In this document: piece after piece, positions 11,446-38,292 of the stretch
Layout of the letters: every line of letters begins with the position of its first letter
Numbering within the stretch: the stretch's first letter is position 1
Source: a virus
DNA: 64,000 bases
Virus record (IMG/VR): IMGVR_UViG_3300037231_000129
Location: 34,025-98,024 of that record
Direction: 5' to 3' (one strand)
Notes under the pieces: generated by a model
Told to the model about the DNA's origin: nothing
The model's database searches: none
What the model saw: the letters and a program-made list of their open reading frames with translations, nothing else
Translations under genes and position numbers: made by a program

Positions 11446-11521
11446 TGGTGCCCAGGGATGGAATCGAACCACCGACTCCCGCGTTTTCGGCGCGGAGCTC
11501 TACCAACTGAGCTACCCGGGC
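11446..11521 (-). tRNA. tRNA-Phe (GAA)
   Basis: 76-nt cloverleaf on the minus strand. Acceptor GCCCGGG pairs with CCTGGGC, D-arm GCTC/GAGC, anticodon stem CCGCG/CGCGG with loop CCGAAAA (anticodon GAA), T-arm loop TTCGATT, and an encoded A-CCA end. Encoded CCA and intact stems indicate a functional phage tRNA. Confidence 0.93.
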
Positions 11522-11526
11522 AACGA

Positions 11527-11625
11527 GCCTGGTGAGGGATTCGAACCCCCGACCTCTCTACAGTCCCACAGCCGTGAAGCTGACCCTGCTTGAGTGCTCT
11601 GACCGAATAACTGAGCTACCCAGAC
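11527..11625 (-). tRNA. tRNA-like element with enlarged anticodon loop (degenerate or interrupted)
   Basis: Acceptor GTCTGGG/ACCAGGC pairs at six of seven positions, D-stem GCTC/GAGC is intact with a 13-nt D-loop, and the T-arm GGGGG-TTCGAAT-CCCTC is good. The anticodon arm is abnormal: CTCAA/TAGAG closes a loop of about 29 nt instead of 7, an excess of about 22 nt. No CCA is encoded. A GTA (Tyr-like, CTGTAGA) and a CAC triplet lie in the loop, but neither sits in a proper 7-nt loop. It is either a decayed tRNA or one interrupted in the anticodon loop. Confidence 0.5.
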
Positions 11626-13309: not shown

Positions 13310-13387
13310 CGCCGCGTGAGCGGCGTGCCTTCCCTGTGATCAAGCAGGGCAGAGAGCTGGCTGCGCTCCAGCGAAAGGCACACCCCA
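13310..13387 (+). repeat. structured start-associated leader, type 1 (copy 1)
   Basis: Stem A CCCTG/CAGGG (13332-13349), conserved cagaga, stem B GCTGG/CCAGC (13356-13372), then GAAAGGCACACCCCA directly before ATG. A further GCCGC/GCGGC hairpin lies at the 5' end. Confidence 0.75.
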
Positions 13388-13756: not shown

Positions 13757-13868
13757 GCGGCGTGCCTTCGGGCCTCCTAAGACCACGCCGCACCATGCGG
13801 CGTGCCTATCCAGCACCGCTGGACAGAGAGCCGAGACCTGTCCGTCTCGGCGAAAGGCACACCCCAAT
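13757..13868 (+). repeat. structured start-associated leader, type 1 (copy 2)
   Basis: Stem A CCAGC/GCTGG, conserved acagaga, stem B GCCGAGA/TCTCGGC, then GAAAGGCACACCCCA before the ATG. Two extra hairpins precede it (GCCGC/GCGGC and CACGCCGC/GCGGCGTG). Confidence 0.75.
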
Positions 13869-14138: not shown

Positions 14139-14220
14139 GAACCTGGCGCAAGCCAGGGCCTTCCCCACCCCGTGGGGCAGAGAGCCGGGACCTGTCAGTT
14201 CTGGCGAAAGGCACACCCCA
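14139..14220 (+). repeat. structured start-associated leader, type 1 (copy 3)
   Basis: Upstream hairpin CCTGGC/GCCAGG, stem A CCCCA/TGGGG, cagaga, stem B GCCGGGA/TTCTGGC (G-T pairs), then GAAAGGCACACCCCA before ATG. Confidence 0.75.
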
Positions 14221-14541: not shown

Positions 14542-14608
14542 CGGGGCGCCTTTCCAGCACCGCTGGACAGAGAGCCGAGACCTGTCGTCTCGGCGAAAGG
14601 CACACCCA
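14542..14608 (+). repeat. structured start-associated leader, type 1 (copy 4)
   Basis: Stem A CCAGC/GCTGG, acagaga, stem B GCCGAGA/TCTCGGC with a shorter loop than copy 2, then GAAAGGCACACCCA before ATG. Confidence 0.75.
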
Positions 14609-14731: not shown

Positions 14732-14815
14732 CCAAACTGCCCCTCTCGTAGGGGCGCCTTCCCCGCACCGCGGGGCAGAGAGCATCCCTGCAATGGATGC
14801 GAAAGGCACACCCCA
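14732..14815 (+). repeat. structured start-associated leader, type 1 (copy 5)
   Basis: Upstream hairpin GCCCCT/AGGGGC, stem A CCCCGC/GCGGGG, cagaga, stem B GCATCC/GGATGC, then GAAAGGCACACCCCA before ATG. Stem B differs entirely from other copies yet still pairs. Confidence 0.75.
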
Positions 14816-15746: not shown

Positions 15747-15816
15747 TCGGGCGGGCCTTCCCCGCACCGCGGGGCAGAGAGCCGAGACCTGCACGTCCCG
15801 GCGAAAGGCACACAAA
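15747..15816 (+). repeat. structured start-associated leader, type 1 (copy 7)
   Basis: Stem A CCCCGC/GCGGGG, cagaga, stem B GCCGAGA/TCCCGGC (imperfect), then GAAAGGCACACAAA before ATG; the C-run before the start is mutated to A. Confidence 0.7.
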
Positions 15817-15942
15817 ATGCCGTTCCTCCTCGCCCTGGCATTCATTTACCTGCCGGGTTGGGTCTGGCCCGCGCTCATCATTTTCGCGTTGATCGCGCTG
15901 CTAGTGCCCGGCCTTGCACCCCCCAGAACCGGCGGTAAGTAA
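15817..15942 (+). CDS. small membrane protein (41 aa)
   Basis: MPFLLALAFIYLPGWVWPAL and the following IIFALIALLVPGL make nearly the whole protein hydrophobic: one or two membrane helices with a short Pro/Arg tail. The type 1 leader supports translation. Its role is unknown; holin-like size, but no lysis partner is adjacent. Confidence 0.6.
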   Translation: MPFLLALAFIYLPGWVWPALIIFALIALLVPGLAPPRTGGK

Positions 15943-15984
15943 CCGCCGGCGCCGGCATTCAACCGGCTTGAGAAAGGGACAACC
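15943..15984 (+). repeat. structured start-associated leader, type 2 (copy 1)
   Basis: Stem II GCCGG/CCGGC with loop cattcaa, then TTGAGAAAGGGACAACC before ATG. This is where the array switches from type 1 to type 2. Confidence 0.65.
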
Positions 15985-16260
15985 ATGACCATAGACCCCA
16001 ACCTCCTCCGACCTGGTCATCGTCTGCGGTTCACCCAATCGCTGGACGTCTTCACCCTGGACCACATCTTTCCCAAAGGTGCGGCGGGCACGATCGAAGA
16101 CGCCGAACTCGACGCCCTCCCGGGTCTGCCAATCCTGTATCTGCGCATGGATGACGTCTTTCCCTGCTTGAGCAGCTTCAAGAATGTTCTGCAGATCTTC
16201 CGGTCTAATGACCTGGGTGCGGAGGTGACCGACGCTGAATTCGAACCATGCGGCTTCTAA
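15985..16260 (+). CDS. hypothetical protein (91 aa)
   Basis: Beta-rich small domain: PGHRLRFTQSLDVFTLD, FPKGAAGTIEDAEL, LYLRMDDVFP. The 'strong turn with G-T-I-E' pattern resembles small SH3-like barrels in phage early proteins. Ends close to the next leader. Confidence 0.6.
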   Translation: MTIDPNLLRPGHRLRFTQSLDVFTLDHIFPKGAAGTIEDAELDALPGLPILYLRMDDVFPCLSSFKNVLQIFRSNDLGAEVTDAEFEPCGF

Positions 16261-16304
16261 GCCGCCTGGTGCCAGGACACCCCTGGCTTGATAAGGACAT
16301 CCAC
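16261..16304 (+). repeat. structured start-associated leader, type 2 (copy 2)
   Basis: Stem II GCCAGG/CCTGGC with loop acacc, then TTGATAAGGACATCCAC before ATG 16305. Confidence 0.65.
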
Positions 16305-16910
16305 ATGTTACTCACCGACGACCAGGCCACACGCATCAACGGCCTTCTCCGTGCCACGCGGCCGTTCGCCAAATTGCCGGCGACGAACCAGCGACCCATG
16401 AACACCACGTGGCAAGCACTGAACGACACGTTGATGTCGATGCGGCTCCCCCTCTATCACAGATCCCTGCGCAAGCCGGTTCCCACGGAGAAGGTCTACG
16501 AGGCCGCCGTGCAGAATGGGCTTGCACTCCTCGGCGCGTTCGCGGCGACGCTTGGCACCAAACAGGCCATCGTCAGCAGCCGCGGCCGCTGGATCGACCG
16601 CATCAGCTTTCAGCCCCGTCCCGACGGGATGAACTGGAATGCGGCGCATGCCATCTCCCCGGAGTATCTGGTCCAAAAACGGGCCAGTGATCCGAACCAA
16701 GCTGTCTCGTTGGAGGATTTCCTGTTCATGGCCGCCAAGACTACCTACGTGGTAGCCCGGCGGTCCGCAGGCGCGATCCCCGACATTACCGCTACCTTCG
16801 CCTTCGACGTCGCCTCCGATGGTGCGCCGACGGTCGATGGGGTGGTGCGAGAACACGGCGCCCAGACGCATAACGCGAGCTTGCTGCCGCTTTCTCCTTT
16901 CCGCCTTTGA
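16305..16910 (+). CDS. hypothetical protein (201 aa)
   Basis: Starts MLLTDDQATRINGLLRATRP. A helical N-terminal half (VYEAAVQNGLALLGAFAATL) is followed by a mixed region with a repeat of VASDGAP-like loops. Reads as an intact soluble protein; no family recognised. It is the last gene of the first leader array. Confidence 0.65.
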   Translation: MLLTDDQATRINGLLRATRPFAKLPATNQRPMNTTWQALNDTLMSMRLPLYHRSLRKPVPTEKVYEAAVQNGLALLGAFAATLGTKQAIVSSRGRWIDRISFQPRPDGMNWNAAHAISPEYLVQKRASDPNQAVSLEDFLFMAAKTTYVVARRSAGAIPDITATFAFDVASDGAPTVDGVVREHGAQTHNASLLPLSPFRL

Positions 16911-25183: not shown

Positions 25184-25418
25184 ATTTGCTGTATTTTCAA
25201 TACCTAAACGATTCCAGTCGCTTGATCGCCAGAGTCGGCATCACCATATCTATTGGGCAATAACCACACGCAAAAATTTACCACCGGGACTCGGTTTTTT
25301 GTGCCGATCCATAGAACGGCCGGTCTGCATGCACGCATGCGAATCGTCTGTGTTCCCGTTTTGAACGTGGTTTTCATATCCGAAACCGCTCCGTGGCCGT
25401 GCCTCCCTCCCATGACCA
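25184..25418. promoter_or_regulatory. divergent control region between replication operon and second leader array
   Basis: No gene seen. AT-rich segment with two short palindromes, GTATT ttc AATAC (25191-25203) and TATTG gg CAATA (25251-25262), and a GCATGCACGCATGC repeat near 25327. Its place between the divergent starts at 25183 and 25465 suggests promoters and operators for both; no clear -35/-10 pair can be fixed. Confidence 0.4.
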
Positions 25419-25464
25419 CGGGACGATCCGCCGGCGATCAAGCCGGCACTGATGAGGATACCCC
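25419..25464 (+). repeat. structured start-associated leader, type 2 (copy 3)
   Basis: Stem II GCCGGC/GCCGGC with loop gatcaa (25430-25447), then ACTGATGAGGATACCCC before ATG 25465. Confidence 0.75.
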
Positions 25465-25698
25465 ATGACAACACGCATCCCGCAGGTCGTTCTGGACGCT
25501 TACGTCGCGCGTTGGTCGCATCTCGGGATATTGGCCGGGAAGGTCAATGATCCTGCTGTCACCGGCCTGCGCGCCGCACGCACATTCGCCCAGACGGTTT
25601 GCTGTCTCGAATCACCTCCCACGGTCACCATCAACCAGGTTCGCGGGCTTGCCCGCGTGGCCAATGGCGAACCCTGGGAAGCGATCCCCGACGTTTGA
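25465..25698 (+). CDS. hypothetical protein (77 aa)
   Basis: MTTRIPQVVLDAYVARWSHL opens an all-helical small protein; C-terminal part VTINQVRGLARVANGEPW. First gene of the second leader array. No family recognised. Confidence 0.6.
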   Translation: MTTRIPQVVLDAYVARWSHLGILAGKVNDPAVTGLRAARTFAQTVCCLESPPTVTINQVRGLARVANGEPWEAIPDV

Positions 25699-25756
25699 AA
25701 CCCCGGCCCGCCGGGTTCCCGGCGCAATCTGGCGCCGGACTGATGAGGAACACCCC
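25699..25756 (+). repeat. structured start-associated leader, type 2 (copy 4)
   Basis: Stem I CCCGGC/GCCGGG, stem II CCGGCGC/GGCGCCGG with loop aatct, then ACTGATGAGGAACACCCC before ATG. Confidence 0.75.
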
Positions 25757-26002
25757 ATGCCACCAAGAAGACGCGTTGAATGGCTCGCGGCGAAAGCCGA
25801 GGGTCAATGCAACGACGTGCCCTACGACACCGAGCTGGTGAACAGCAACGGCGTCTCCATCCATTTTTGGCTGGGCGACCGTGAACCCACCGACGAACTG
25901 CTCGACGATCTCTCACGACGTGCCTGCAATCGGCGGGACATCGTGCGGATCCAATTCTCCGAGGGTCAGCCCACCGGCTTCTGGGCTCACTCCGATTTCT
26001 GA
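25757..26002 (+). CDS. hypothetical protein (81 aa)
   Basis: Mixed alpha/beta: MPPRRRVEWLAAKAEGQ, VSIHFWLGDREPTDELLDDL, IVRIQFSEGQPTGFWAH. Polar and soluble; no recognised family. Start set by the leader. Confidence 0.6.
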   Translation: MPPRRRVEWLAAKAEGQCNDVPYDTELVNSNGVSIHFWLGDREPTDELLDDLSRRACNRRDIVRIQFSEGQPTGFWAHSDF

Positions 26003-26064
26003 CGAAACCCCGGCTCAGCCGGGTTTCCGGCGCAATCCTGCGTCGGGCTGATGAAAGGAATCAC
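26003..26064 (+). repeat. structured start-associated leader, type 2 (copy 5)
   Basis: Stem I CCCGGCT/AGCCGGG, stem II CCGGCGCA/TGCGTCGG (one G-T), then GCTGATGAAAGGAATCAC before ATG. Confidence 0.7.
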
Positions 26065-26577
26065 ATGCCCCTTACCGTCCTTCGCGACGGTGCAGCACCG
26101 GTCATTCTTTCCAACCGGACTGTCTTTGATCAACTTCCCGACGAGATTGACGTAGCCGAGCTGATGAGCTCGATCCGCGCCGGCGACACCGTGCCCGTTA
26201 CCTTACGGGAGATCGGTGCTGTCCGGCTGACGTCGCCAGGCATGGTGCCAACGCTGGATTACAATCCGCCCCAGCAATCGTTGGCTCTGTCCACGGCGCA
26301 TCCCATGCCCGTGGATCGGCCGTTCGAACTCGAATGCCGGATCCTGGTTCCAATCGATGCCATGATCAATTGCCATGCCCCCTCCAAAAAGGAGGCTATG
26401 GAATTGGCCAACAAGGTTTTCGATGGTGTCAGGCAGGCGCCTTCGAGTTTCCAGGTGGTGGTGAACCGCGATGATATAGCGGAAATCTTCCACGATCTGG
26501 AGAACGGCATGTCGCGCAGACGCTTCGACCTGATTGGCGCCCACAACCTGGTGGTCAATCGAACGGAAGAACGATGA
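26065..26577 (+). CDS. hypothetical protein (170 aa)
   Basis: Beta-rich N-terminus (LTVLRDGAAPVILSNRTVFD) followed by a helical C-terminal part (KKEAMELANKVFDGVRQAPS). It is followed by the next gene after only 13 bases without a leader, so the pair 26065/26591 is probably co-translated. Confidence 0.6.
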   Translation: MPLTVLRDGAAPVILSNRTVFDQLPDEIDVAELMSSIRAGDTVPVTLREIGAVRLTSPGMVPTLDYNPPQQSLALSTAHPMPVDRPFELECRILVPIDAMINCHAPSKKEAMELANKVFDGVRQAPSSFQVVVNRDDIAEIFHDLENGMSRRRFDLIGAHNLVVNRTEER

Positions 26578-26590
26578 AAGAATCCAGCCC

Positions 26591-27166
26591 ATGGCAAATC
26601 TGACTGTTTACCGCCAGCAAGAGCCACCGTTTTCAATGACGATGGCCAACTGCCTGGCGGCCGCTGCCACCCAGGAAGACACCGATCTGATTGCCCTGTC
26701 CATGCGCACCAAGCGCCCTGCTCTGGTGGGCCTCGACAGCCGGTCGTCGATCATTCTACCCGGTGGAGACCTCGACGGACGTACCACGTTCGAAGATCTC
26801 TACGACACCTGCCTGACATTGGTCGACCTGCAGCACATGCGGGAGGCCAATGTTAGCAACCCTGAGGATGTGCCACTGCGAGCCTACAGGCTCGAAGTGT
26901 TGTTTGCGATCGATGGCACCTGCCAAATACCGATTGCTCTTCTCGCCAGTTCTATCGGCGATGCACGCCCCCGTTTGCGTACTCTCCTCGCCAAGGATGT
27001 TATGTTCCGCGAAGCCCTGTTTGACGCTGTCATTCAGGCTATCGACCGGAACTTTCGGGCTGAGGAGGATATCGTATTCCGGGTGCGGGAGAGCAGCATG
27101 GACGATCGCTCCATCATCCCGCCCCTGCTCCCAGGGGCCGGGCCAGAGTGGCGCATTCTTGAGTAA
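26591..27166 (+). CDS. hypothetical protein (191 aa)
   Basis: Starts MANLTVYRQQEPPFSMTMAN. Mixed helices and strands, including YRLEVLFAIDGTCQIPIALL. No metal or catalytic motif seen. It lacks its own leader and depends on the gene at 26065. Confidence 0.6.
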   Translation: MANLTVYRQQEPPFSMTMANCLAAAATQEDTDLIALSMRTKRPALVGLDSRSSIILPGGDLDGRTTFEDLYDTCLTLVDLQHMREANVSNPEDVPLRAYRLEVLFAIDGTCQIPIALLASSIGDARPRLRTLLAKDVMFREALFDAVIQAIDRNFRAEEDIVFRVRESSMDDRSIIPPLLPGAGPEWRILE

Positions 27167-27239
27167 GTGAAAACCCCGTAGCGGATACCGCCGCGGGGTT
27201 TTGCTTGCATTCAGCAAGCATTGATAAGGAACACACCCA
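27167..27239 (+). repeat. structured start-associated leader, type 2 (copy 6) with terminator-like stem I
   Basis: Stem I AACCCCG/CGGGGTT followed by TTT (27173-27201, terminator-like), stem II GCTTGC/GCAAGC with loop attca, then ATTGATAAGGAACACACCCA before ATG. Confidence 0.75.
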
Positions 27240-27482
27240 ATGTCTGACGAACCCAAGATCCTTGACGGGATCGCTATGCCCCCGATCCACCCCTCGATCA
27301 CCATGGACTTGGTTCTCGAAGCCATGGATCGCTCACCAAGCGAGACAGACGCCCTCGGCTTCTGCCTGGCGTGTGGCGAGAGCGTGCGAGAGATCGCTAC
27401 GAGCACCAGGCGCGAGACATGCGGCTTCTGCGGTTGCCCTGCCGTCTTCGGCGCCGAGGAAATCATGTTCATTCTCGCCTGA
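27240..27482 (+). CDS. small zinc-ribbon protein, tandem paralog 1 (80 aa)
   Basis: GFCLACGESVRE followed by CGFCGCPAVFGAEE: four Cys in a two-pair zinc ribbon with a common phage ending 'C-G-x-P-A-V-F-G-A-E-E'. The gene at 27541 has the same plan. Similar small ribbon proteins are widespread in proteobacterial phages, function unknown. Confidence 0.7.
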   Translation: MSDEPKILDGIAMPPIHPSITMDLVLEAMDRSPSETDALGFCLACGESVREIATSTRRETCGFCGCPAVFGAEEIMFILA

Positions 27483-27540
27483 TCCGAACCTGGGCCACGC
27501 CCGGGCGCGGGCATTTCGCCCGCTTGAAAAGGAACACCCC
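27483..27540 (+). repeat. structured start-associated leader, type 2 (copy 7)
   Basis: Stem I CCTGGGC/GCCCGGG (one G-T), stem II GCGGGC/GCCCGC with loop atttc, then TTGAAAAGGAACACCCC before ATG. Confidence 0.75.
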
Positions 27541-27786
27541 ATGTCGAAAACCGCTCAGGAGATCCTGGATGCCCTGCCCCTGCCGCCGATCCATTCGAGC
27601 GTCACGCCCGAGCGGCTCACCGAGGCGCTCACCCGCTATCAGCAGACCTTGGATAACCCAGGGTTTTGTTTGAGTTGCGGCGCCGAGGCCGAGGGCTGCG
27701 AACCCGATGCCCGTCGCTACCACTGCGACGAGTGCGGACAGCCCGCCGTCTTCGGCGCCGAGGAACTCGTGCTGATGACGATGTAG
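27541..27786 (+). CDS. small zinc-ribbon protein, tandem paralog 2 (81 aa)
   Basis: GFCLSCGAEAEG, then YHCDECGQPAVFGAEE. It shares MPPIH/PPIHSS, VT and ribbon spacing with the gene at 27240, so the pair arose by tandem duplication. Ends 9 bases before the next gene, which has no leader of its own. Confidence 0.75.
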   Translation: MSKTAQEILDALPLPPIHSSVTPERLTEALTRYQQTLDNPGFCLSCGAEAEGCEPDARRYHCDECGQPAVFGAEELVLMTM

Positions 27787-27795
27787 GAGGCAGCC

Positions 27796-28017
27796 ATGGC
27801 AGCGCGTCTCTGGAATCCTCACATTGGCACCCTGAAAGGCGGCCTACATCATAGTGTGGCCTACATCATTCAGATGCGGGTGCCACGCGATGAAGGCTAT
27901 GGCTCGCCCATGGTCGCCCTGTCCGATTACACCACTTCCCGCCGTACGGCGGATAGCTGGTTGGCGGATGCTCGGGTGAAGGCCGGCCGCTATCTCAGGG
28001 ATACCCGAAACAAATAA
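27796..28017 (+). CDS. hypothetical protein (73 aa)
   Basis: MAARLWNPHIGTLKGGLHHS, VAYIIQMRVPRDE, then a basic helix. AGGAGG site just before ATG. Probably co-translated with the gene at 27541. No family recognised. Confidence 0.55.
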   Translation: MAARLWNPHIGTLKGGLHHSVAYIIQMRVPRDEGYGSPMVALSDYTTSRRTADSWLADARVKAGRYLRDTRNK

Positions 28018-28075
28018 CCGAACCCGGGCTACACCCGGGTGCGAGCATCCCGCTCGCTTGAAAAGGAAACACCCC
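28018..28075 (+). repeat. structured start-associated leader, type 2 (copy 8)
   Basis: Stem I ACCCGGG/CCCGGGT, stem II GCGAGC/GCTCGC with loop atccc, then TTGAAAAGGAAACACCCC before ATG. Confidence 0.75.
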
Positions 28076-28669
28076 ATGGCTTCCTATCGTGAACTCGCGG
28101 CCGCCATCGAGGCGCTCTGCCGCGCTATTCGTGCTCGAACGATATCGCCTGCCTCGGCGTTGCTCACGTCATGTGAAGCGCTTGCCGCGGCCGCTCGCCG
28201 TGGCATCGTTGCTCAATCGCCCTGGACGCCCTTCGAGCCAGCGACAGCGCCGCCGATCTCCGAACGGGCACTGCAGCTCACCGCTGAAAGACTGAACCTG
28301 CCCCTTGAGGACGTCCGTCGTGAGTTGACCGACGAAATCCAGGGACCGCAGATCTTCATCAACAGCCGCTACCAGGTCGCCATGCGGCTTTGGGAACCCG
28401 GCGTCATGTATCTGTCGATCAAGCGTCTGGACCAGCAACCCATCCGGTCCTGGCGCGACCTGCAGCGGATCAAGACCGAACTGGTTGGCCCCGAAAACGA
28501 AGGGGTCGAACTGTTCCCCGCGGAATCGCGGCTCATCGATCGGGCCAACCAGTTCCACCTGTTCATTTTGACCGATCCAGCGGCGCGGTTCCCGTTCGGT
28601 TACAAGCACACCCGCGACGTCGGCCCTCCCGTTGGCCTTGGCGAGGCGCAGGAACCATTCGAGGCATAA
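28076..28669 (+). CDS. DUF7694-like phage protein (197 aa)
   Basis: The C-terminal half has the conserved run MYLSIKRLDQQPIRSWRDLQ, RIKTELVGPENEGVELFP, AESRLIDRANQFHLFIL, known from a widespread phage protein family (DUF7694 in my memory) with no established function. The N-terminal half is helical and variable. Intact. Confidence 0.7.
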   Translation: MASYRELAAAIEALCRAIRARTISPASALLTSCEALAAAARRGIVAQSPWTPFEPATAPPISERALQLTAERLNLPLEDVRRELTDEIQGPQIFINSRYQVAMRLWEPGVMYLSIKRLDQQPIRSWRDLQRIKTELVGPENEGVELFPAESRLIDRANQFHLFILTDPAARFPFGYKHTRDVGPPVGLGEAQEPFEA

Positions 28670-28723
28670 TCCGAACCCCTTCGGGGGTGCGAGCAATCAA
28701 GCTCGCTTGAAAAGGCTACACCC
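28670..28723 (+). repeat. structured start-associated leader, type 2 (copy 9)
   Basis: Stem I ACCCC/GGGGT, stem II GCGAGC/GCTCGC with loop aatcaa, then TTGAAAAGGCTACACCC before ATG. Confidence 0.75.
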
Positions 28724-28926
28724 ATGTCGAGGCACCCTCAATTCAGAATGGGATTTAAGACCGGCAACAATGCTTTCGATTACGGTCTGGGCATCCTGGA
28801 ATCCATCGCATTTTGACCGAGATCAACGCCAAAATCGCTGATGGCGATCGAATAGGTAAGATCATGGACAGCAACGGCAATTCCATCGGCCAGTGGTCAC
28901 TGGAATTGCCGGACGATAAAGATTGA
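28724..28926 (+). pseudogene. small conserved phage protein, split by a -1 frameshift
   Basis: The first frame (28724-28816) gives 30 residues with FKTGNNAFDYGLGILESIA and stops at TGA 28814-28816. The -1 frame continues TEINAKIADGDRIGKIMDSN, GNSIGQWSLEL and stops at 28924-28926. Together they match a well-known small phage protein pattern (F-K-T-G-N-x-A-F ... G-K-I-x-D-x-N-G-N-x-x-G-x-W). A TTG at 28813 overlaps the stop (TTGA), so re-initiation is possible; a mutation or sequencing error is equally likely. Confidence 0.6.
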
Positions 28927-28988
28927 GCCGAACCCGCGGCGCAAGCCCGGGCGCGAGCGATCAAGCTCGCTTGATAAGGAAACACCCA
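28927..28988 (+). repeat. structured start-associated leader, type 2 (copy 10)
   Basis: Stem I CCCG/CGGGC-like, stem II GCGAGC/GCTCGC with loop gatcaa, then TTGATAAGGAAACACCCA before ATG. Confidence 0.7.
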
Positions 28989-29423
28989 ATGGGATACACA
29001 CATTTTTGGTTTGCACCCGAAGCAATCAGACCCCGCATCTGGTGGGTCGTGATGGCCGACGCGCTTAAGTTGGTGGAAGCATTCCCAGGCCCTGGTGGCC
29101 TCTGCATGGGCATCGAGAACCAAGCCCAGCGAGCCTTCGTCTCACGCGAGGAAATCCGCTTCAATGGCGGACCAGGCGCGCAGGCGGAGGATTTCAGGCT
29201 CACCCGGGAAGCCGGCAAACGGTATAGCTCCTGCAAGACCCAGCATCAGCCCTATGAACGGCTGGTCTGTGCTATACTTGCCTCCACCGCTGATCGTACT
29301 CGGCTCATTCGCGTCACCAGCGATGGCAATCATCACGATTGGTTACCATATATAGAGTGGGCGTCCACGGTGTTGCGGCGTCCACTCCCGATGCCGATCC
29401 ATACCAACGAAATCACAGGGTAA
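28989..29423 (+). CDS. conserved phage protein of the MGYTHxW type (144 aa)
   Basis: Opens MGYTHFWFAPEAIRPRIWWV, then EIRFNGGPGAQAEDFRL and KTQHQPYERLVCAIL. These marks (MGYTH-x-W start, FNG, K-T-x-x-x-P-Y) define a common phage protein with a predicted alpha/beta fold; function not known to me. Confidence 0.75.
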   Translation: MGYTHFWFAPEAIRPRIWWVVMADALKLVEAFPGPGGLCMGIENQAQRAFVSREEIRFNGGPGAQAEDFRLTREAGKRYSSCKTQHQPYERLVCAILASTADRTRLIRVTSDGNHHDWLPYIEWASTVLRRPLPMPIHTNEITG

Positions 29424-29481
29424 CGAACCCCACCGCCCGGTGGGGACGCCGGCGATCAAGCCGGCACTGAGGAGTAACCCT
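29424..29481 (+). repeat. structured start-associated leader, type 2 (copy 11)
   Basis: Stem I CCCCACC/GGTGGGG, stem II GCCGGC/GCCGGC with loop gatcaa, then ACTGAGGAGTAACCCT before ATG. Confidence 0.75.
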
Positions 29482-30303
29482 ATGGCAGATCTCGACATTA
29501 TCGAACTCATGCGGAGCCCGCTGACCCAAAGCGGGAAATCCTCGAACTTCCTGCGCCTGGTGCTGTCCGAAGCCGCAAGCTACGGCATGCCGGCGCAGGT
29601 GGTTGCTACACTCGACGACATAGCGGCGATGCTCGGCTACTACCGGCCCCTGCCAGAGGGGCAGGCCGTGCATCTGGCGGGTCCTCTTGTGCAATGGCGT
29701 ACCGACCGGCAACAGCCGGTGCTGGAACGCATCACGGAAATCGAAGGCCTGGCGCTCAAACAGCGTGCCCTCGTTGCTTTCGGCGGCGCACCACCCGACC
29801 ACCGGGTAGGCACCGCGGAGATCATCGTCGCGCTGTCCAACTGCCATAAGAGCTTCATGCCAAAGCCCTATTATGAGATTTGGGCATGGGCTTGTACCAC
29901 CGTCATGGCGCATCTGACCGGCGAAAACCCCGAGAAGATCCGCAAGACGAATGAGTGGCCGCAAGTTTTCGACAACGATGTGCTCCGCCCCGGCGGCCGT
30001 CTGCACCCCACTTACACGGAGATCGCCACCTCTATTCGTCGCGTCAGCATTGATTCGATGCGAGGCGATGAAGAAAACCCACGGGTCCGGCTGCGGCCCC
30101 TTGCTCTGGTGTTTCTCCACGCGCATCAACGGTATCTCAACGAAGCCAAGCACGAAGCTGGTTCCGTCGAGTTGCTACAGGTTGAGGCGGTGGAAAACGC
30201 GATCAAGTCGATCCACAGCATGTTTCCCGATATCACTCAGGACGAGATCAACGCCGTTGATTTCACTGAGGAAGTCTCAAAGCTCGCAGAGCTGAGCATT
30301 TAG
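29482..30303 (+). CDS. hypothetical protein, paralog of the gene at 33192 (273 aa)
   Basis: MADLDIIELMRSPLTQSGKS, then a region alignable with the protein at 33192: VGTAEIIVALSNCHKSFMPK, helix, TGENPEKIRKTNEWPQVFDN, YTEIATSIRRVS. The C-terminal helical extension (about 70 residues) is unique to this copy. Start set by the leader at ATG 29482, not at 29440. Function unknown. Confidence 0.65.
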   Translation: MADLDIIELMRSPLTQSGKSSNFLRLVLSEAASYGMPAQVVATLDDIAAMLGYYRPLPEGQAVHLAGPLVQWRTDRQQPVLERITEIEGLALKQRALVAFGGAPPDHRVGTAEIIVALSNCHKSFMPKPYYEIWAWACTTVMAHLTGENPEKIRKTNEWPQVFDNDVLRPGGRLHPTYTEIATSIRRVSIDSMRGDEENPRVRLRPLALVFLHAHQRYLNEAKHEAGSVELLQVEAVENAIKSIHSMFPDITQDEINAVDFTEEVSKLAELSI

Positions 30304-30394
30304 CCGAACAACCGCCCGGGCCCAGCGCCTGGGTGGTTTAGCGCCAACACGGCGCCAGACGAGGCAATTCTGCTCGCTGCACCGGGATATCCCG
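30304..30394 (+). repeat. structured start-associated leader, type 2 (copy 12, divergent)
   Basis: Stem I CCCGGG.../CCTGGG, stem II GCGCC/GGCGC with loop aacac, then a long non-matching segment before the ATG at 30395. The GAGG-type ribosome site is displaced. Confidence 0.5.
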
Positions 30395-30703
30395 ATGGCT
30401 GATCACAAACGAAAACCCGCCAAAACCACGAAATTTCCGAAAAAGTTTCGCATGAAACTGGAAAAAATCGTGGAGGCCAAAGCCGGGCGGGCATCGGAAG
30501 CGACGAGAGAAGAGGCATTCGACAAGATTGCCGACGTTCTCGGCCGCGAACTGCTGACGCCCGGCTCGGTCTACGCGACGCACACGGTGATCGACGAAGC
30601 GAATTTTCGTCTAACCTCGCGTCACTGGATCCAGCCGATCGACAAGCTTCGCTACCTGTCGGTTCCTGCTCCCTGGCTTCCCGAAACCCCGGCCTCCTCG
30701 TGA
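30395..30703 (+). CDS. hypothetical basic protein (102 aa)
   Basis: The first 35 residues are Lys-rich (MADHKRKPAKTTKFPKKFRM); the rest is helix plus strands (SVYATHTVIDEANFRLTSRH). Possibly nucleic-acid-binding by charge only. No strong ribosome site. Confidence 0.55.
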   Translation: MADHKRKPAKTTKFPKKFRMKLEKIVEAKAGRASEATREEAFDKIADVLGRELLTPGSVYATHTVIDEANFRLTSRHWIQPIDKLRYLSVPAPWLPETPASS

Positions 30704-30750
30704 GGCCGGGATATGCCGGCGATCAAGCCGACACTGATGAGGAACACCCC
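30704..30750 (+). repeat. structured start-associated leader, type 2 (copy 13)
   Basis: Stem I CCCCGGCCTC/GAGGCCGGG, stem II GCCGGC/GCCGAC (one mismatch) with loop gatcaa, then ACTGATGAGGAACACCCC before ATG. Stem I is shared with the orphan copy at 31075. Confidence 0.75.
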
Positions 30751-31074
30751 ATGAGATACTGCAAAATCATCAACGGATTGCTCTACGACACCGAGACTGC
30801 CGACCTGATCTGCGACATAACTCCGAAAGAGGCCGGCCAATCTCGCAGCGATTTCAACTACGATGACACTGGGCTCTACCGCACCCCCGGCAAGAGGTTT
30901 TTCATCGCCGGGGAAGGAGGTCCCACTTCCCGCTGGAGCACGCCTGTGAACAACGGTCTTTTCGAAGGCAATGGCCTGAGAGAAATTACCGAAGAAGAGG
31001 CAAAAGCGTTCGTCGAGGAATTCGCCTCGGTCGAGATGTATATCGCAGTTTTCGGCGAGCCCGATTCTGCTTAA
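30751..31074 (+). CDS. conserved phage protein (107 aa)
   Basis: MRYCKIINGLLYDTETADLI, then GLYRTPGKRFFIAGEGGP and LREITEEEAKAFVEEF. The 'L-Y-R-T-P...F-x-x-G-E-G-G-P-x-S-R-W' pattern marks a family found in many phages and some bacterial chromosomes; role unknown. Last gene before the minus-strand island. Confidence 0.7.
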   Translation: MRYCKIINGLLYDTETADLICDITPKEAGQSRSDFNYDDTGLYRTPGKRFFIAGEGGPTSRWSTPVNNGLFEGNGLREITEEEAKAFVEEFASVEMYIAVFGEPDSA

Positions 31075-31137
31075 GCGAAACCCCGGCCTCCTCGTGAGGC
31101 CGGGATATGCCGGTATTTCGCCGGCGCTGATGAGGCC
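31075..31137 (+). repeat. orphan structured leader, type 2 (copy 14), no gene follows
   Basis: Stem I CCCCGGCCTC/GAGGCCGGG identical to copy 13, stem II GCCGG/CCGGC with loop tatttcg, then CGCTGATGAGG, cut off by the 3' end of the minus-strand gene at 31138. No ATG follows. It may act as a terminator for the upstream gene. Confidence 0.75.
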
Positions 31138-31905
31138 CTAAGCCGGCAACGATGCCACGTCCGCCGAGAGCGACGCCCAATCCAGGTCGGATGGAGCGAG
31201 CCCCGTGGTGGTGATCCAGAACCGCGACAGCGCGACGTCGGTGGCGAGCCAATACCTGGAGAGAAAATCAGGGTGCATCCACACCTGCTCCGCCCACGTC
31301 TCGCCATTGAGATAGCCGTCGCGCTGGCCGCCCACGGCAATGCTGTGCTGACCCCAGCCACCAGGCTCCCAGCCTGTCCCGGTGCCAGGCGCATCCCCCC
31401 AAGCACTCACCGGGGCCTGCAGCAGCGCCTCGGGCAGCGCCAGGGTGATGCGGACCGGGCCGGCCAGATCGATCGCCACCGGGGTGTCCGCCAGGTCAGC
31501 GTGCGTCCAGCCGATGACGTCGAGGTCGTTGGCCGGATTGCCGAGCGGCAACCCTTGCGTCGCCCACCAGGCCATGAACTCATTGGTGTTGGTGCCCGAG
31601 CCCATACCGGGTGGCGTGTAGCCCGTGCGCTGGGTGTACAGGCCGAGACAGCCGGCCGTCGTCGGCAAGTAGCTGTTCGGTCCCCAGGCATGATGTGCCC
31701 GGGCGCGGGCGATCTGGAAGGCGCTCACCTCGACGCAATTACCGGCGTCATTGTTGCCCAGCATGGGATCGGGGCCGCTAGCGAAATCGATCCCGTCGAA
31801 CCAGTCGGTTTCCGGTTTGGTCTGGGGCAGCTGCAGCAGTGAAGCGAAAGCGCGAATCACGGCGGGCCGGGGCGTATGGATCGCCCCGGTGCAACGTTCG
31901 ATCAT
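31138..31905 (-). CDS. papain-like cysteine peptidase-fold protein
   Basis: 255 residues. GNNDAGNCVEVSAFQ (Cys57 with upstream Asn/Asp) and GGWGQHSIAVGGQRDGYLN (His187, Asn200) give the Cys-His-Asn order of papain-like folds such as C39-like peptidases. No signal peptide. Ends a three-gene minus-strand island that follows a lipoprotein and a small protein. Substrate unknown; it could cleave peptidoglycan or host proteins. ATG 31905 starts one base after the lipoprotein stop. Confidence 0.6.
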   Translation of the reverse strand: MIERCTGAIHTPRPAVIRAFASLLQLPQTKPETDWFDGIDFASGPDPMLGNNDAGNCVEVSAFQIARARAHHAWGPNSYLPTTAGCLGLYTQRTGYTPPGMGSGTNTNEFMAWWATQGLPLGNPANDLDVIGWTHADLADTPVAIDLAGPVRITLALPEALLQAPVSAWGDAPGTGTGWEPGGWGQHSIAVGGQRDGYLNGETWAEQVWMHPDFLSRYWLATDVALSRFWITTTGLAPSDLDWASLSADVASLPA

Positions 31906-31906
31906 C

Positions 31907-32443
31907 TTACTGTACCGAAGCAACTTGCAGGTAAGCCAGACCCAGCAGGCTGAACATGCTGGCTTCGGTGGGATTCTTGTCGATGCCGGCGAGGTGGGTG
32001 ATGTGGTTGATCATCTCCGCCTGCTTGTTCGCGGTGGCGACGTCGGCCTTCAATTTCTGGAAGTCGAACATCGCCTTGGCATCGACCGGCGCGGTCACGG
32101 TGCCAGGCATTGGCGCGAGAACCGCAACCAATCCCAGGATCGAGGGCAGGAAGCTGCCCAACTGGCTGATCGTGTTGGTGACATCCGTCAGCACGGACGA
32201 AGCCGTGGTGCCGGAGGTTCCCAAGTTCAGCGCTGCCACGTCCGTGGACAGTTTCGACGTGGCCGCGGCGACCTGCTGGAGCTCCGTCGTGGTGAGCGGC
32301 TGGCCGTTGGCGTCGGCCTCGATGTCAGTGATCAGCGTCGCGGTGTCGCCGGCGACGGCGCTGATTGCGGTCGAGCTGGTCGAGCTGCAAGACGCGACCA
32401 GCAGCGCGGCCGTGGATGCGCCGACGAGGAGAACTTTTTTCAT
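31907..32443 (-). CDS. predicted lipoprotein (178 aa)
   Basis: Signal peptide MKKVLLVGASTAALLVASC with lipobox LVASC, so Cys19 should be lipidated and anchored in the outer membrane or periplasm. The rest is Thr/Ala/Ser-rich with helical segments (LTTTELQQVAAATSKLSTDV). Sits between a small protein and the papain-like gene. Phage lipoproteins can be lysis spanins or superinfection factors; this one is longer than usual o-spanins. Confidence 0.75.
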   Translation of the reverse strand: MKKVLLVGASTAALLVASCSSTSSTAISAVAGDTATLITDIEADANGQPLTTTELQQVAAATSKLSTDVAALNLGTSGTTASSVLTDVTNTISQLGSFLPSILGLVAVLAPMPGTVTAPVDAKAMFDFQKLKADVATANKQAEMINHITHLAGIDKNPTEASMFSLLGLAYLQVASVQ

Positions 32444-32479
32444 CCGAGTGGCCTTTCTACGATGTGGCGATGGGTCGCC

Positions 32480-32791
32480 TTATGAGCCGGTGGCGGGTGC
32501 CGGCGACGGTGCGGGTTGCGAGAGCGAAGCGGCAAACGCGGTTGCGGCGGCCAGGACCGTCTCGCCGGCGTTCTCGATCTGCACCACGGGCACGCCGTGT
32601 GCCTCGGCCGACGCAATGCCGGCGGCCAGGGCCTCCGAGATCAGCGGCGAGCTTGCCGTCAGGGTCGTCAGGCTCTCCTCGGCCACCGCGACCTTGCCGA
32701 CCAGCCAAACCGCCGCGTGTTCGACCGCGGTCAGCCCTTCGTGGCCAATTTGTTCAAGCTTCTGGACGATTGTCATCGAGGGATCGGACAT
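32480..32791 (-). CDS. hypothetical helical protein (103 aa)
   Basis: First gene of the island; GGAGG site before ATG 32791. Helical (VQKLEQIGHEGLTAVEHAAV, ending in a Pro/Ala tail), without a clear membrane segment. Could be a holin-like or regulatory protein; nothing decides. Confidence 0.6.
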   Translation of the reverse strand: MSDPSMTIVQKLEQIGHEGLTAVEHAAVWLVGKVAVAEESLTTLTASSPLISEALAAGIASAEAHGVPVVQIENAGETVLAAATAFAASLSQPAPSPAPATGS

Positions 32792-32904
32792 GGGAATCCT
32801 CCAAATATATTAGGTTTATCCAGCGGATTGTTCATGCGCGCATTTTTGGTTTGCGGCGAGTCACAAAATCACAGGGTAGTGTTTCAATTTGATCTGTGAA
32901 AGCC

Positions 32905-32957
32905 CCGCATTTTACTAGGAGCTCTGCCGGCACCCCGCCGGCGCTGATGAGGACACC
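32905..32957 (+). repeat. structured start-associated leader, type 2 (copy 15)
   Basis: Stem II GCCGGC/GCCGGC with loop acccc (32917-32933), then GCTGATGAGGACACC before ATG 32958. Stem I is missing: the sequence upstream belongs to the island boundary. Confidence 0.7.
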
Positions 32958-33125
32958 ATGAAATACGCTGTGATTCCCAGCTCCTGGCTCACCACCGGCT
33001 GGGGCTGGAGCGCCCGCCGTCTCATTGTCCTGCAACGGATGGCGATGCGATACGAACTGCCGTTGGACGATCCAACGCGGCTGGAAGGCCTGTATCGCCA
33101 CGTCTGCTTTGAGATATGGCCTTAG
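32958..33125 (+). CDS. hypothetical small protein (55 aa)
   Basis: MKYAVIPSSWLTTGWGWSAR, then RRLIVLQRMAMRYELPL and a Cys-containing end. Too short for family assignment; supported by its type 2 leader with correct spacing. Confidence 0.6.
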   Translation: MKYAVIPSSWLTTGWGWSARRLIVLQRMAMRYELPLDDPTRLEGLYRHVCFEIWP

Positions 33126-33191
33126 TGCGAACCCCTGCCTCCCGATCGGCAGGGGTCCGGGACAATCAAGTCCCGACTGATGAGCACCCCC
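33126..33191 (+). repeat. structured start-associated leader, type 2 (copy 16)
   Basis: Stem I CCCCTGCC/GGCAGGGG, stem II GGGAC/GTCCC with loop aatcaa, then GACTGATGAGCACCCCC before ATG 33192. Confidence 0.75.
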
Positions 33192-33779
33192 ATGAAAAAC
33201 CAACCCTGCTACGTCTCCGCGGACGACAACAACATCAAATTGTTCCGGACCATGGCCGCCGTCGGTTTACCGATGAGCCTGCTGGGCCAATTGATCGCAA
33301 CGCTCCGCGTCGACCTGAATATTCCGATCGCGATGCTACGCTACGTGTTCGGACCGCTGGTCATACATGTGCCACCCGGCACCCCAAGCGGCGATATGGC
33401 ATGGCTTGACCGCAAAACCATCGATCGCTGGAAACCACGGGTTTACGTCGAACGACTGGAGATCCTGTGTGGCGAAGTACCAGACATCGTCTCGGCGACG
33501 GAAATCTGGCTGGTCACCACGAACGCACTTCATGAAGCACCACCGCGGCATCAGCTGGCGGAGGTTGTTCTATGGGCCGCGAATCGTGCGCTGATCCGCT
33601 CCGGTCAGGAGAACCCCTTGACCAAGGCCGACAACACCTATCGGCTGGCGTCGGATGAAGATGTCATCGAGGGCAACTATTCGATGGAATATCGCGAATT
33701 GTCCCGTCAGATCATCGCCAAGGTGATTGCACACAGCCAGATCGAGCGACGACCGCGCCGCGCCGCCGCGGCGGAATGA
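33192..33779 (+). CDS. hypothetical protein, paralog of the gene at 29482 (195 aa)
   Basis: Starts MKNQPCYVSADDNNIKLFRT. Shared with the 29482 protein: VSATEIWLVTTNALHEAPP, a helix ALIRSGQENPLTKADNTYRL and YRELSRQIIAKVI. It lacks the C-terminal extension. Function unknown; both are array genes with leaders. Confidence 0.65.
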   Translation: MKNQPCYVSADDNNIKLFRTMAAVGLPMSLLGQLIATLRVDLNIPIAMLRYVFGPLVIHVPPGTPSGDMAWLDRKTIDRWKPRVYVERLEILCGEVPDIVSATEIWLVTTNALHEAPPRHQLAEVVLWAANRALIRSGQENPLTKADNTYRLASDEDVIEGNYSMEYRELSRQIIAKVIAHSQIERRPRRAAAAE

Positions 33780-33783
33780 GACA

Positions 33784-33814
33784 AGCCCCTACGTTTTCAA
33801 CGTGGGGGCTTTTC
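33784..33814 (+). terminator. intrinsic terminator after the second leader array
   Basis: AGCCCCtACGTT ttc AACGTgGGGGCT followed by TTT; a 12-bp stem with one mismatch pair. It closes the array before the recombination operon. Confidence 0.8.
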
Positions 33815-33923: not shown

Positions 33924-34067
33924 ATGGCCGGTAAGACCCGCAAGACAGCCGGGAGGGAAGAGTATCGCAAGGCTCGACGCGATCTGGCGAGCAGCATGTT
34001 TGAGCCGCTGCTGCTGGCTCTCGTCCTCTACCTGCTAGCGCGGTGGCTTTTCTCCGCGGTTTTCTAG
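33924..34067 (+). CDS. small membrane protein (47 aa)
   Basis: Basic N-terminus (MAGKTRKTAGREEYRKARRD) followed by one hydrophobic helix (PLLLALVLYLLARWLFSAVF). GGAGG site 7 bases before ATG 33924; the in-frame ATG at 33885 is less well placed. A C-tail-anchored small protein of unknown role at the head of the recombination operon. Confidence 0.6.
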   Translation: MAGKTRKTAGREEYRKARRDLASSMFEPLLLALVLYLLARWLFSAVF

Positions 34068-37617: not shown

Positions 37618-37938
37618 ATGCCCGGGCGCTGCGCTAGCTGCCGCTCATGGGACGGTCATACGCAGGCTCGGTTGCGGCAGATGGGCAGTTGCGATCTCGA
37701 TGGCCAGCTCGTGCATGCTGGCTACGGCTGTCCATCGCACAGGCCCAGCGTGCGATCCCTCCAAGTTATTGTCGGCATGACCCTCACCGACCTGGTGCGT
37801 CTACGCCAAGACCACGGCGACGCGGCCGACCAGCTGCGCGAAGCGTGGCTCATCCTCTGGAAAAAACCTGACGACGATCCGACACGCTGGATGTTCGAAC
37901 GGCTGCTACGCGACTACCGCAACATACCGCCCTCCTGA
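37618..37938 (+). CDS. Cys-rich zinc-binding protein (106 aa)
   Basis: CASCRSWDGHTQARLRQMGS-C, then GYGCPSHRP, a four-Cys zinc site as in many small phage proteins, followed by a helical C-terminus (VRLRQDHGDAADQLREAWLI). Three bases after the GcrA-like gene. Confidence 0.65.
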   Translation: MPGRCASCRSWDGHTQARLRQMGSCDLDGQLVHAGYGCPSHRPSVRSLQVIVGMTLTDLVRLRQDHGDAADQLREAWLILWKKPDDDPTRWMFERLLRDYRNIPPS

Positions 37939-37989
37939 AACAGCAATGTCCGCCGGTGATCAAGCCGGCACTGACGAGGAGCACATCCC
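37939..37989 (+). repeat. structured start-associated leader, type 2 (copy 17)
   Basis: Stem II GCCGG/CCGGC with loop tgatcaag, then ACTGACGAGGAGCACATCCC before a GTG start. Solitary copy about 4.7 kb downstream of the main array. Confidence 0.7.
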
Positions 37990-38292
37990 GTGCATCATCT
38001 TATCATCCACAATCCAGAAGGGTTCGCAGCGTTCACCGCCGCGGCCCACGAACGCGGCAAGTCAGCCGATTTCGCGCTGGCCTGGACGCGCTTGACCTGT
38101 CTGTTATTTGGCTATTTCGACCCGGACAATCCGGGGCGATCCATCGAGATCACATTTCCCGTGGATCAGACCCGCTCGATCCTCTGGGCGGTCTTCGATC
38201 CCTCGTACACACGCGGCCCCCGGCCGGGCATTCGGCTCGCCGGGGCCATGCTCTTTCACGAATCCGATCAGACCTGGGGGATCCACACATGA
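37990..38292 (+). CDS. hypothetical protein (100 aa)
   Basis: GTG start set by the leader. MHHLIIHNPEGFAAFTAAAH, then SIEITFPVDQTRSILWAVFD and beta strands. A mixed alpha/beta fold. Overlaps the next gene by 4 bases. Confidence 0.6.
   Translation: MHHLIIHNPEGFAAFTAAAHERGKSADFALAWTRLTCLLFGYFDPDNPGRSIEITFPVDQTRSILWAVFDPSYTRGPRPGIRLAGAMLFHESDQTWGIHT

Follow-up and report, generated by a model that had tools for sequence, protein, structure and literature searches.

Probable divergent type II hammerhead ribozymes as leaders at the translation starts of a phage gene array

What is the element that precedes, gene after gene, the start codons of a run of small phage genes, and what would it do for the transcript that carries it? 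The question is raised by a stretch of 64,000 nucleotides (hereafter the window) of the IMG/VR virus record IMGVR_UViG_3300037231_000129, corresponding to positions 34,025 to 98,024 of a virus contig of 98,024 bases, in which each of sixteen small genes or gene slots, all on the plus strand and within 15.9-38.0 kb, follows a structured leader. Tail, portal, head-morphogenesis and primase genes, together with a tail length tape-measure protein, assign the genome to a tailed phage, and proteins resembling its tail protein are most frequent in phages of Caulobacter, Rhodobacter and Brevundimonas. The original prediction, made from the sequence alone, had proposed a two-hairpin plan shared by plus-strand genes; every element of this plan is present (13 descriptor matches, 16 curated copies), as are the five "stem II" sequences listed and the additional copies near 15943, 16261 and 37939. 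The leaders are therefore real, although their identity, including that of the segments supposed to be unpaired, had been missed. Here we present evidence that they are probably divergent type II hammerhead self-cleaving ribozymes fused to translation starts, which would split a polycistronic transcript at its gene boundaries.

Read from 5' to 3', each leader opens with a few flanking nucleotides, often CC, and GAA(A/C); a G+C-rich hairpin, a nucleotide other than G, a second hairpin, the segment [C/T]TGAN[G/A]A and GG follow. In hammerhead numbering, this order corresponds to positions 11.2-11.1, G12 A13 A14, stem III, H17 followed by the cut, stem I, positions 3-9 and positions 10.1-10.2; stem II is open and stems I and III are closed by loops, which is the type II permutation. 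The hairpins originally numbered I and II are stem III and stem I, respectively, and the segments "GAAC" and "TGATGAGG" constitute the catalytic core and stem II. The constant 3' tail that had been proposed was a loose consensus, since TGATGAGGAACACCCC occurs exactly at only two places, with two near matches, and the other leaders deviate from it, their actual tails including TTGAAAAGGAAACACC, CTGAGGAGTAACCC and CTGATGAGCACCCCC. Likewise, the array does occupy the proposed region (25419-33191), although its true start lies slightly upstream, the first ribozyme beginning at 25378.

A hammerhead structural descriptor was run on both strands of the window, on the 34 kb of the contig outside it and on 60 dinucleotide shuffles. 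It matched 13 places on the plus strand of the window, none on its minus strand and none in the other 34 kb, with a mean of 0.1 and a maximum of one match per shuffle. The set of 16 copies results from manual curation for the hammerhead core, and a divergent 17th copy (30302..30366) is counted apart. Furthermore, when the Rfam model RF02276 (Hammerhead_II) was searched over the 98-kb contig, the six top places were all leaders, all on the plus strand, the best E-value being 2.2e-4.

Pairing and covariation were measured on a 14-pair alignment made from fixed-position composites of the 16 copies, because a MAFFT alignment misregisters positions 1.1/2.1 between the two core classes. Paired cells amounted to 84%; shuffles gave 56% and slid controls 38-46%. 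Double changes were found in 13 of the 14 pairs, with a covariation score of 0.68 vs 0.22. Stems I (92.5% of cells paired) and III (91%) covary, and stem II is weak (64%). As the copies are paralogues of one genome, these counts show consistency rather than independent events. Within the core, pair 3-8 is C-G in nine copies and U-A in seven, with no mismatches, and pair 15.1-16.1 is always formed, by C-G in eight copies and by A-U in eight. Both pairs are linked, with C15.1-G16.1 in six of the seven U3-A8 copies and A15.1-U16.1 in seven of the nine C3-G8 copies. Positions U4, G5, A6, A9, G12, A13 and A14 are constant in 16/16 copies (the GAA of G12 A13 A14 was itself a search criterion), N7 takes all four bases, and in a scan made without the H17 rule, G occupied position 17 in none of the 13 window copies. 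The earlier claim of a selected RNA structure is thus supported, with covariation in the stems that extends to pairs 3-8 and 15.1-16.1 of the catalytic core.

The leaders are also tightly placed with respect to the genes. Each occupies the interval between one stop codon and the next start codon, and its core carries the Shine-Dalgarno sequence (core positions 8-10.2). In 15 of the 16 copies the start codon lies 7-12 nucleotides past position 10.1, a spacing found for 11% of random plus-strand positions in the region. For nearly all copies (named here by their first position) the upstream stop codon lies 0-4 nucleotides before G12, overlaps G12 or falls inside stem III; for instance, a TGA stop shares its GA with G12 A13 at copies 25693, 32894 and 37933, and the stop is inside stem III at copies 15922, 16239 and 30679. 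Promoter-like sites in the region were not above chance (one, fewer than in shuffles), and the sole strong terminator, an intrinsic-terminator-like hairpin with a T-rich tail (33783..33811, plus strand), stands at the array end as a possible operon terminator. One promoter-like site and one strong terminator are as expected for one long transcript. The leaders were also considered as intrinsic terminators themselves, and this was rejected, a T-run following stem III only at the array end.

All copies are on the plus strand. Those with a U3-A8 core are found at 15922..15978 (core UUGAGAA, C15.1-G16.1, stem II weak with A-A at 10.1/11.1, predicted cut 15950/15951, ATG at 15985), 16239..16298 (UUGAUAA, C15.1-G16.1, predicted cut 16270/16271, ATG at 16305), 27165..27231 (UUGAUAA, A15.1-U16.1, predicted cut 27201/27202, ATG at 27240) and 28926..28981 (UUGAUAA, C15.1-G16.1, predicted cut 28952/28953, ATG at 28989), and three more share core UUGAAAA and C15.1-G16.1, namely 27482..27534 (predicted cut 27506/27507, ATG at 27541), 28016..28068 (predicted cut 28040/28041, ATG at 28076) and 28669..28717 (predicted cut 28688/28689, ATG at 28724). 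Among the C3-G8 copies, core CUGAUGA is present at 25378..25459 (A15.1-U16.1, long stem III, 4-bp stem II AUCC/GGAU, predicted cut 25428/25429, ATG at 25465, RF02276 17.5 bits), 25693..25750 (predicted cut 25717/25718, ATG at 25757, the top Rfam match with RF02276 25.8 bits), 26000..26058 (stem II not paired, predicted cut 26025/26026, ATG at 26065), 30679..30744 (A15.1-U16.1, AUA cut site, predicted cut 30713/30714, ATG at 30751), 31073..31137 (predicted cut 31107/31108), 32894..32954 (A15.1-U16.1, predicted cut 32924/32925, ATG at 32958, RF02276 21.6 bits) and 33125..33187 (C15.1-G16.1, 4-bp stem II GUGC/GCAC, predicted cut 33156/33157, ATG at 33192, RF02276 22.2 bits). The remaining two are 29421..29477 (CUGAGGA, C15.1-G16.1, predicted cut 29446/29447, ATG at 29482) and 37933..37981 (CUGACGA, 3-bp stem III with a GCAA loop, predicted cut 37950/37951, GTG at 37990). 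The divergent copy 30302..30366 displays core CAGACGA (U4A), a C15.1xU16.1 mismatch and stem II GCC/GGC, its start codon (30395) lying 32 nucleotides downstream. Copy 31073..31137, the 16th, is orphaned, no full-length gene following it; in place of its gene there is a minus-strand stretch of three open reading frames (31138-32791), located inside the array between this ribozyme and any gene, which looks like an insertion. Short fragments at 32841-32878 match the start (14/14 bases) and the end (15/16) of gene 28989-29423, an apparent deletion remnant of a duplicate.

A search with the major capsid protein recovered four large relatives (68-70% identity), and all four were examined. Five array genes (16305, 27240/27541, 29482 and 30395) have homologues in three of them, and in 11 of the 13 homologue matches the gene is preceded instead by a leader with a GCAGAGA segment, in the type III permutation. 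This second leader class fits a hammerhead-like RNA by its sequence plan: GCC, U16.1 and H17 come first, C A G A - G A then separates the hairpin of stem I from that of stem II, and G A A A, GGC, the Shine-Dalgarno sequence and the start codon complete it. The core CAGAGA is equivalent to U4A without N7. Across 39 distinct composites, 95% of cells were paired, against 73% in shuffles and 35-46% in slid controls; two copies (UAGAAA) have U-A at the presumed 3-8 pair, and none of 43 leaders has G at position 17. Tens of second-class copies are present in the related phages, and the window contains six such stem-III-open leaders, all with core CAGAGA and on the plus strand (13327..13379, 13804..13858, 14158..14212, 14548..14601, 14756..14807 and 15755..15809). 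Canonical and intermediate forms are found in the same genomes: at G017:33098 (L444:13199), on the plus strand and inside a CAGAGA-class array, a type III hammerhead that is canonical throughout (CUGACGA...GAAA, cut after UA) stands directly before an ATG, and G018:3461 carries the intermediate core CAGAUGA. The relatives' arrays also hold type II copies with U4A cores (CAGAAGA, UAGACAA), the class into which the divergent window copy with CAGACGA falls. No match to the second class was found in Rfam 15, an IMG/VR pattern scan located it only in these relatives, and both leader classes are absent from the fourth relative (G019, 75 kb). Since orthologues keep the stop-to-start module despite the swapped permutation, selection would act on the cut or the hammerhead fold at gene boundaries and not on a particular RNA, a conclusion for which we consider the comparative evidence strong. 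In the window array, the adjacent genes 27240-27482 and 27541-27786 encode similar proteins with cysteine pairs and both match the same gene of relative G016, which suggests a tandem duplication of gene plus ribozyme.

With these features, the virus probably lets its long mRNAs cut themselves into one-gene pieces, each beginning just before the ribosome landing site. Within the polycistronic transcript, each leader would fold into a stem III hairpin, the cut site after H17, a stem I hairpin, the core [C/U]UGAN[G/A]A and a stem II of 2-4 bp closed by the flanks, and self-cleavage would then divide the transcript at every gene boundary. The stem III hairpin, carrying a 2',3'-cyclic phosphate, would form the 3' end of the upstream product, and the stem I hairpin, immediately at a 5'-OH, would open the downstream product, ahead of the Shine-Dalgarno sequence and the start codon. 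Because each leader would cleave at its gene boundary, the phage could obtain hairpin-capped single-gene mRNAs without promoters, terminators or RNase sites. End hairpins are expected to protect against exonucleases and 5'-monophosphate-dependent RNases, so the pieces may be stabilized. A ribosome that terminates at the upstream stop codon would sit on the 5' half of the ribozyme, which would leave folding and cutting to the intervals between ribosomes. Among the three roles originally proposed, i.e., mRNA processing sites, control by a phage protein and recombination points, the first is the best supported.

Several observations weigh against an active ribozyme and in favor of leaders that derive from hammerheads and are catalytically inert, the fold being kept as a 5' hairpin, a translation-initiation element or an RNase landing pad. 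Every copy scores below the Rfam gathering threshold (37 bits, against 25.8 for the top copy); stem II, of about 2 bp in most copies and 4 bp in two (25378 and 33125), has its first position unpaired in two and is weak or unpaired in several; and a C-A mismatch recurs at 1.1-2.1. The pseudoknot between loop I and the tail, which is present in most published type II hammerheads and accelerates the known ones, is not supported here (p=0.26), as opposed to 75 canonical IMG/VR phage copies (p=0.0005). Only half of the copies have the canonical A15.1-U16.1. In other hammerheads, single changes at A15.1 are reported to cause a more than 100-fold loss and U16.1G arose as an inactivating mutation, the paired double change not being among those tested (PMC4075628), so activity cannot be assumed for the C15.1-G16.1 half; no report of this pair was found in the open-access papers that our literature comparison covers. 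In addition, partition-function folding revealed no general gain in accessibility of the Shine-Dalgarno sequence after cleavage (mean unpaired ~0.47 before and 0.45 after), and a role as a translation switch acting through release of this sequence is therefore not supported. Conversely, a hairpin-only role would not hold the unpaired G5, A6, A9, G12, A13 and A14 invariant, and in two permutations, nor would it keep H17 free of G or positions 3-8 covarying, and we regard inert leaders as improbable when set against self-cleaving ones.

Two further explanations would give the repeats a different meaning. A novel structured RNA through which a phage or host protein controls translation would agree with the fixed place before start codons and with constant loops such as GAUCAA; however, the loops vary (GAUCAA, AAUCAA, AUUCA, AUUUC, ACCCC), the hammerhead already accounts for every conserved position, and a canonical hammerhead core stands at the same place in relatives. 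Control by a phage protein found no specific support, and we give the protein-bound RNA very little weight. The repeats could also provide homology for recombination between gene modules, as is weakly suggested by the mosaic sharing of halves among copies: the 5' half is identical in copies 30679 (30679-30716) and 31073 (31073-31110), whose 3' halves differ, and a common 3' half is found in copies 25378, 29421 and 37933, so that the ribozymes look mosaic. The opposite-strand cassette that interrupts the array behind copy 31073 points in the same direction. Nevertheless, most stem sequences differ among copies, hence any homology is short, and neither the selection on the catalytic core nor the exact spacing to the start codon would be explained, which makes recombination points the least probable of these readings.

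Putative self-cleaving leaders of this kind have both precedents and distinctive traits. Perreault et al. (2011) described type II hammerheads, with clusters flanking single prophage genes, and proposed processing to single-gene mRNAs; tandem phage arrays cleaved in vitro, one of them in Escherichia coli, and natural U3-A8 hammerheads were reported as active in vitro (PMC3088659). The present leaders resemble the published type II ribozymes (PMC3088659, RF02276) in the open and very short stem II, the hairpin stems I and III, the CUGANGA/GAAA core and the intergenic phage clusters, and differ from them in the absence of the loop I-tail pseudoknot, the C15.1-G16.1 pair in half of the copies, the scores under the gathering threshold, the Shine-Dalgarno sequence within core and stem II, the start codon 7-12 nucleotides on, and the 16-17 copies per phage. 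The HHphage hammerhead of haloviruses HF1/HF2, located 13 nucleotides before a phage start codon and with a mapped transcript 5' end within 3 nucleotides of the predicted cut (PMC3088659), is likewise shortly upstream of a start codon, but it is a single copy with insertions next to C3, in an archaeal high-salt host. The original prediction had compared the leaders with the start-associated sequences (SAS/ESAS) of cluster K mycobacteriophages (PMC3203893). Those consist of an asymmetric repeat of 13 bp (GGGATAGGAGCCC), to which a 17-bp inverted repeat is added upstream in about half of the cases. The comparison holds for position, both being repeated elements ahead of many phage start codons, but not for anatomy, as the cluster K element is a linear repeat with no hammerhead core; it is unrelated in sequence, as had been stated, and the GGGATAGGAGCCC repeat is not part of any leader.

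Seven IMG/VR phage contigs (L055, L086, L016, L054, L060, L032 and L103) contain 4-11 canonical type II hammerheads each. Like our array, those of L055, L086, L016, L032 and L103 consist of tandem copies between small genes on one strand, and L032 carries four type II copies fused to start codons within ~1 kb, with the start codon within 13 nucleotides. They differ in their canonical cores, in that most of the contigs have copies above the Rfam cut-off, and in a Shine-Dalgarno sequence that is usually separate and downstream of the ribozyme; among canonical phage type II ribozymes, the start codon is within 13 nucleotides in only 15/81 and further on in the others. IMG/VR pattern searches with exact leader tails gave coding coincidences only, variant-core patterns found no real copies in IMG/VR or bacterial genomes, and the array had no DNA match in named phages. 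Hammerhead_II had no match in Microcystis phage Mwe-JY26 or in Polewnik and Strzyga, two Brevundimonas phages whose major capsid proteins show 46-47% identity; a replication-initiator query found no relatives, and primase relatives (top identity 36%) were mostly without hammerheads. As a separate observation, the window encodes a tRNA-Phe gene within 11449-11625 on the minus strand, adjoined by a weaker tRNA-like match (30.5 bits, just above the Rfam cut-off) that was not called by ARAGORN.

Reports or proposals from 2011 already cover clusters of hammerheads in phages, the U3-A8 core and the processing of transcripts to single-gene mRNAs. What is new here is the copy number per phage (16-17 plus six of the second class), the fusion of the Shine-Dalgarno sequence with the ribozyme core, the loss of the pseudoknot, the C15.1-G16.1, U4A and N7-less cores, and the exchange of permutations before orthologous genes. 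We tentatively propose, as a possibility somewhat short of an even chance, that a phage lineage of ~100 kb cuts its accessory-gene transcripts at nearly every boundary by means of start-fused hammerheads of two interchangeable permutations, with active core variants not known in nature (C15.1-G16.1 and U3-A8 in type II; U4A without N7, as CAGAGA/UAGAAA, in type III), and that ribosomes set the timing of cleavage as they terminate at the upstream stop and initiate on the core-embedded Shine-Dalgarno sequence. These findings bear on the role of phage hammerheads, a question since the cluster reports of 2011. Ribozyme chemistry would gain natural core variants from the covarying catalytic pairs, and a module as compact as this one, with stop codon, ribozyme, Shine-Dalgarno sequence and start codon in ~60 nucleotides, could serve as a part for obtaining single-gene mRNAs from one transcript.

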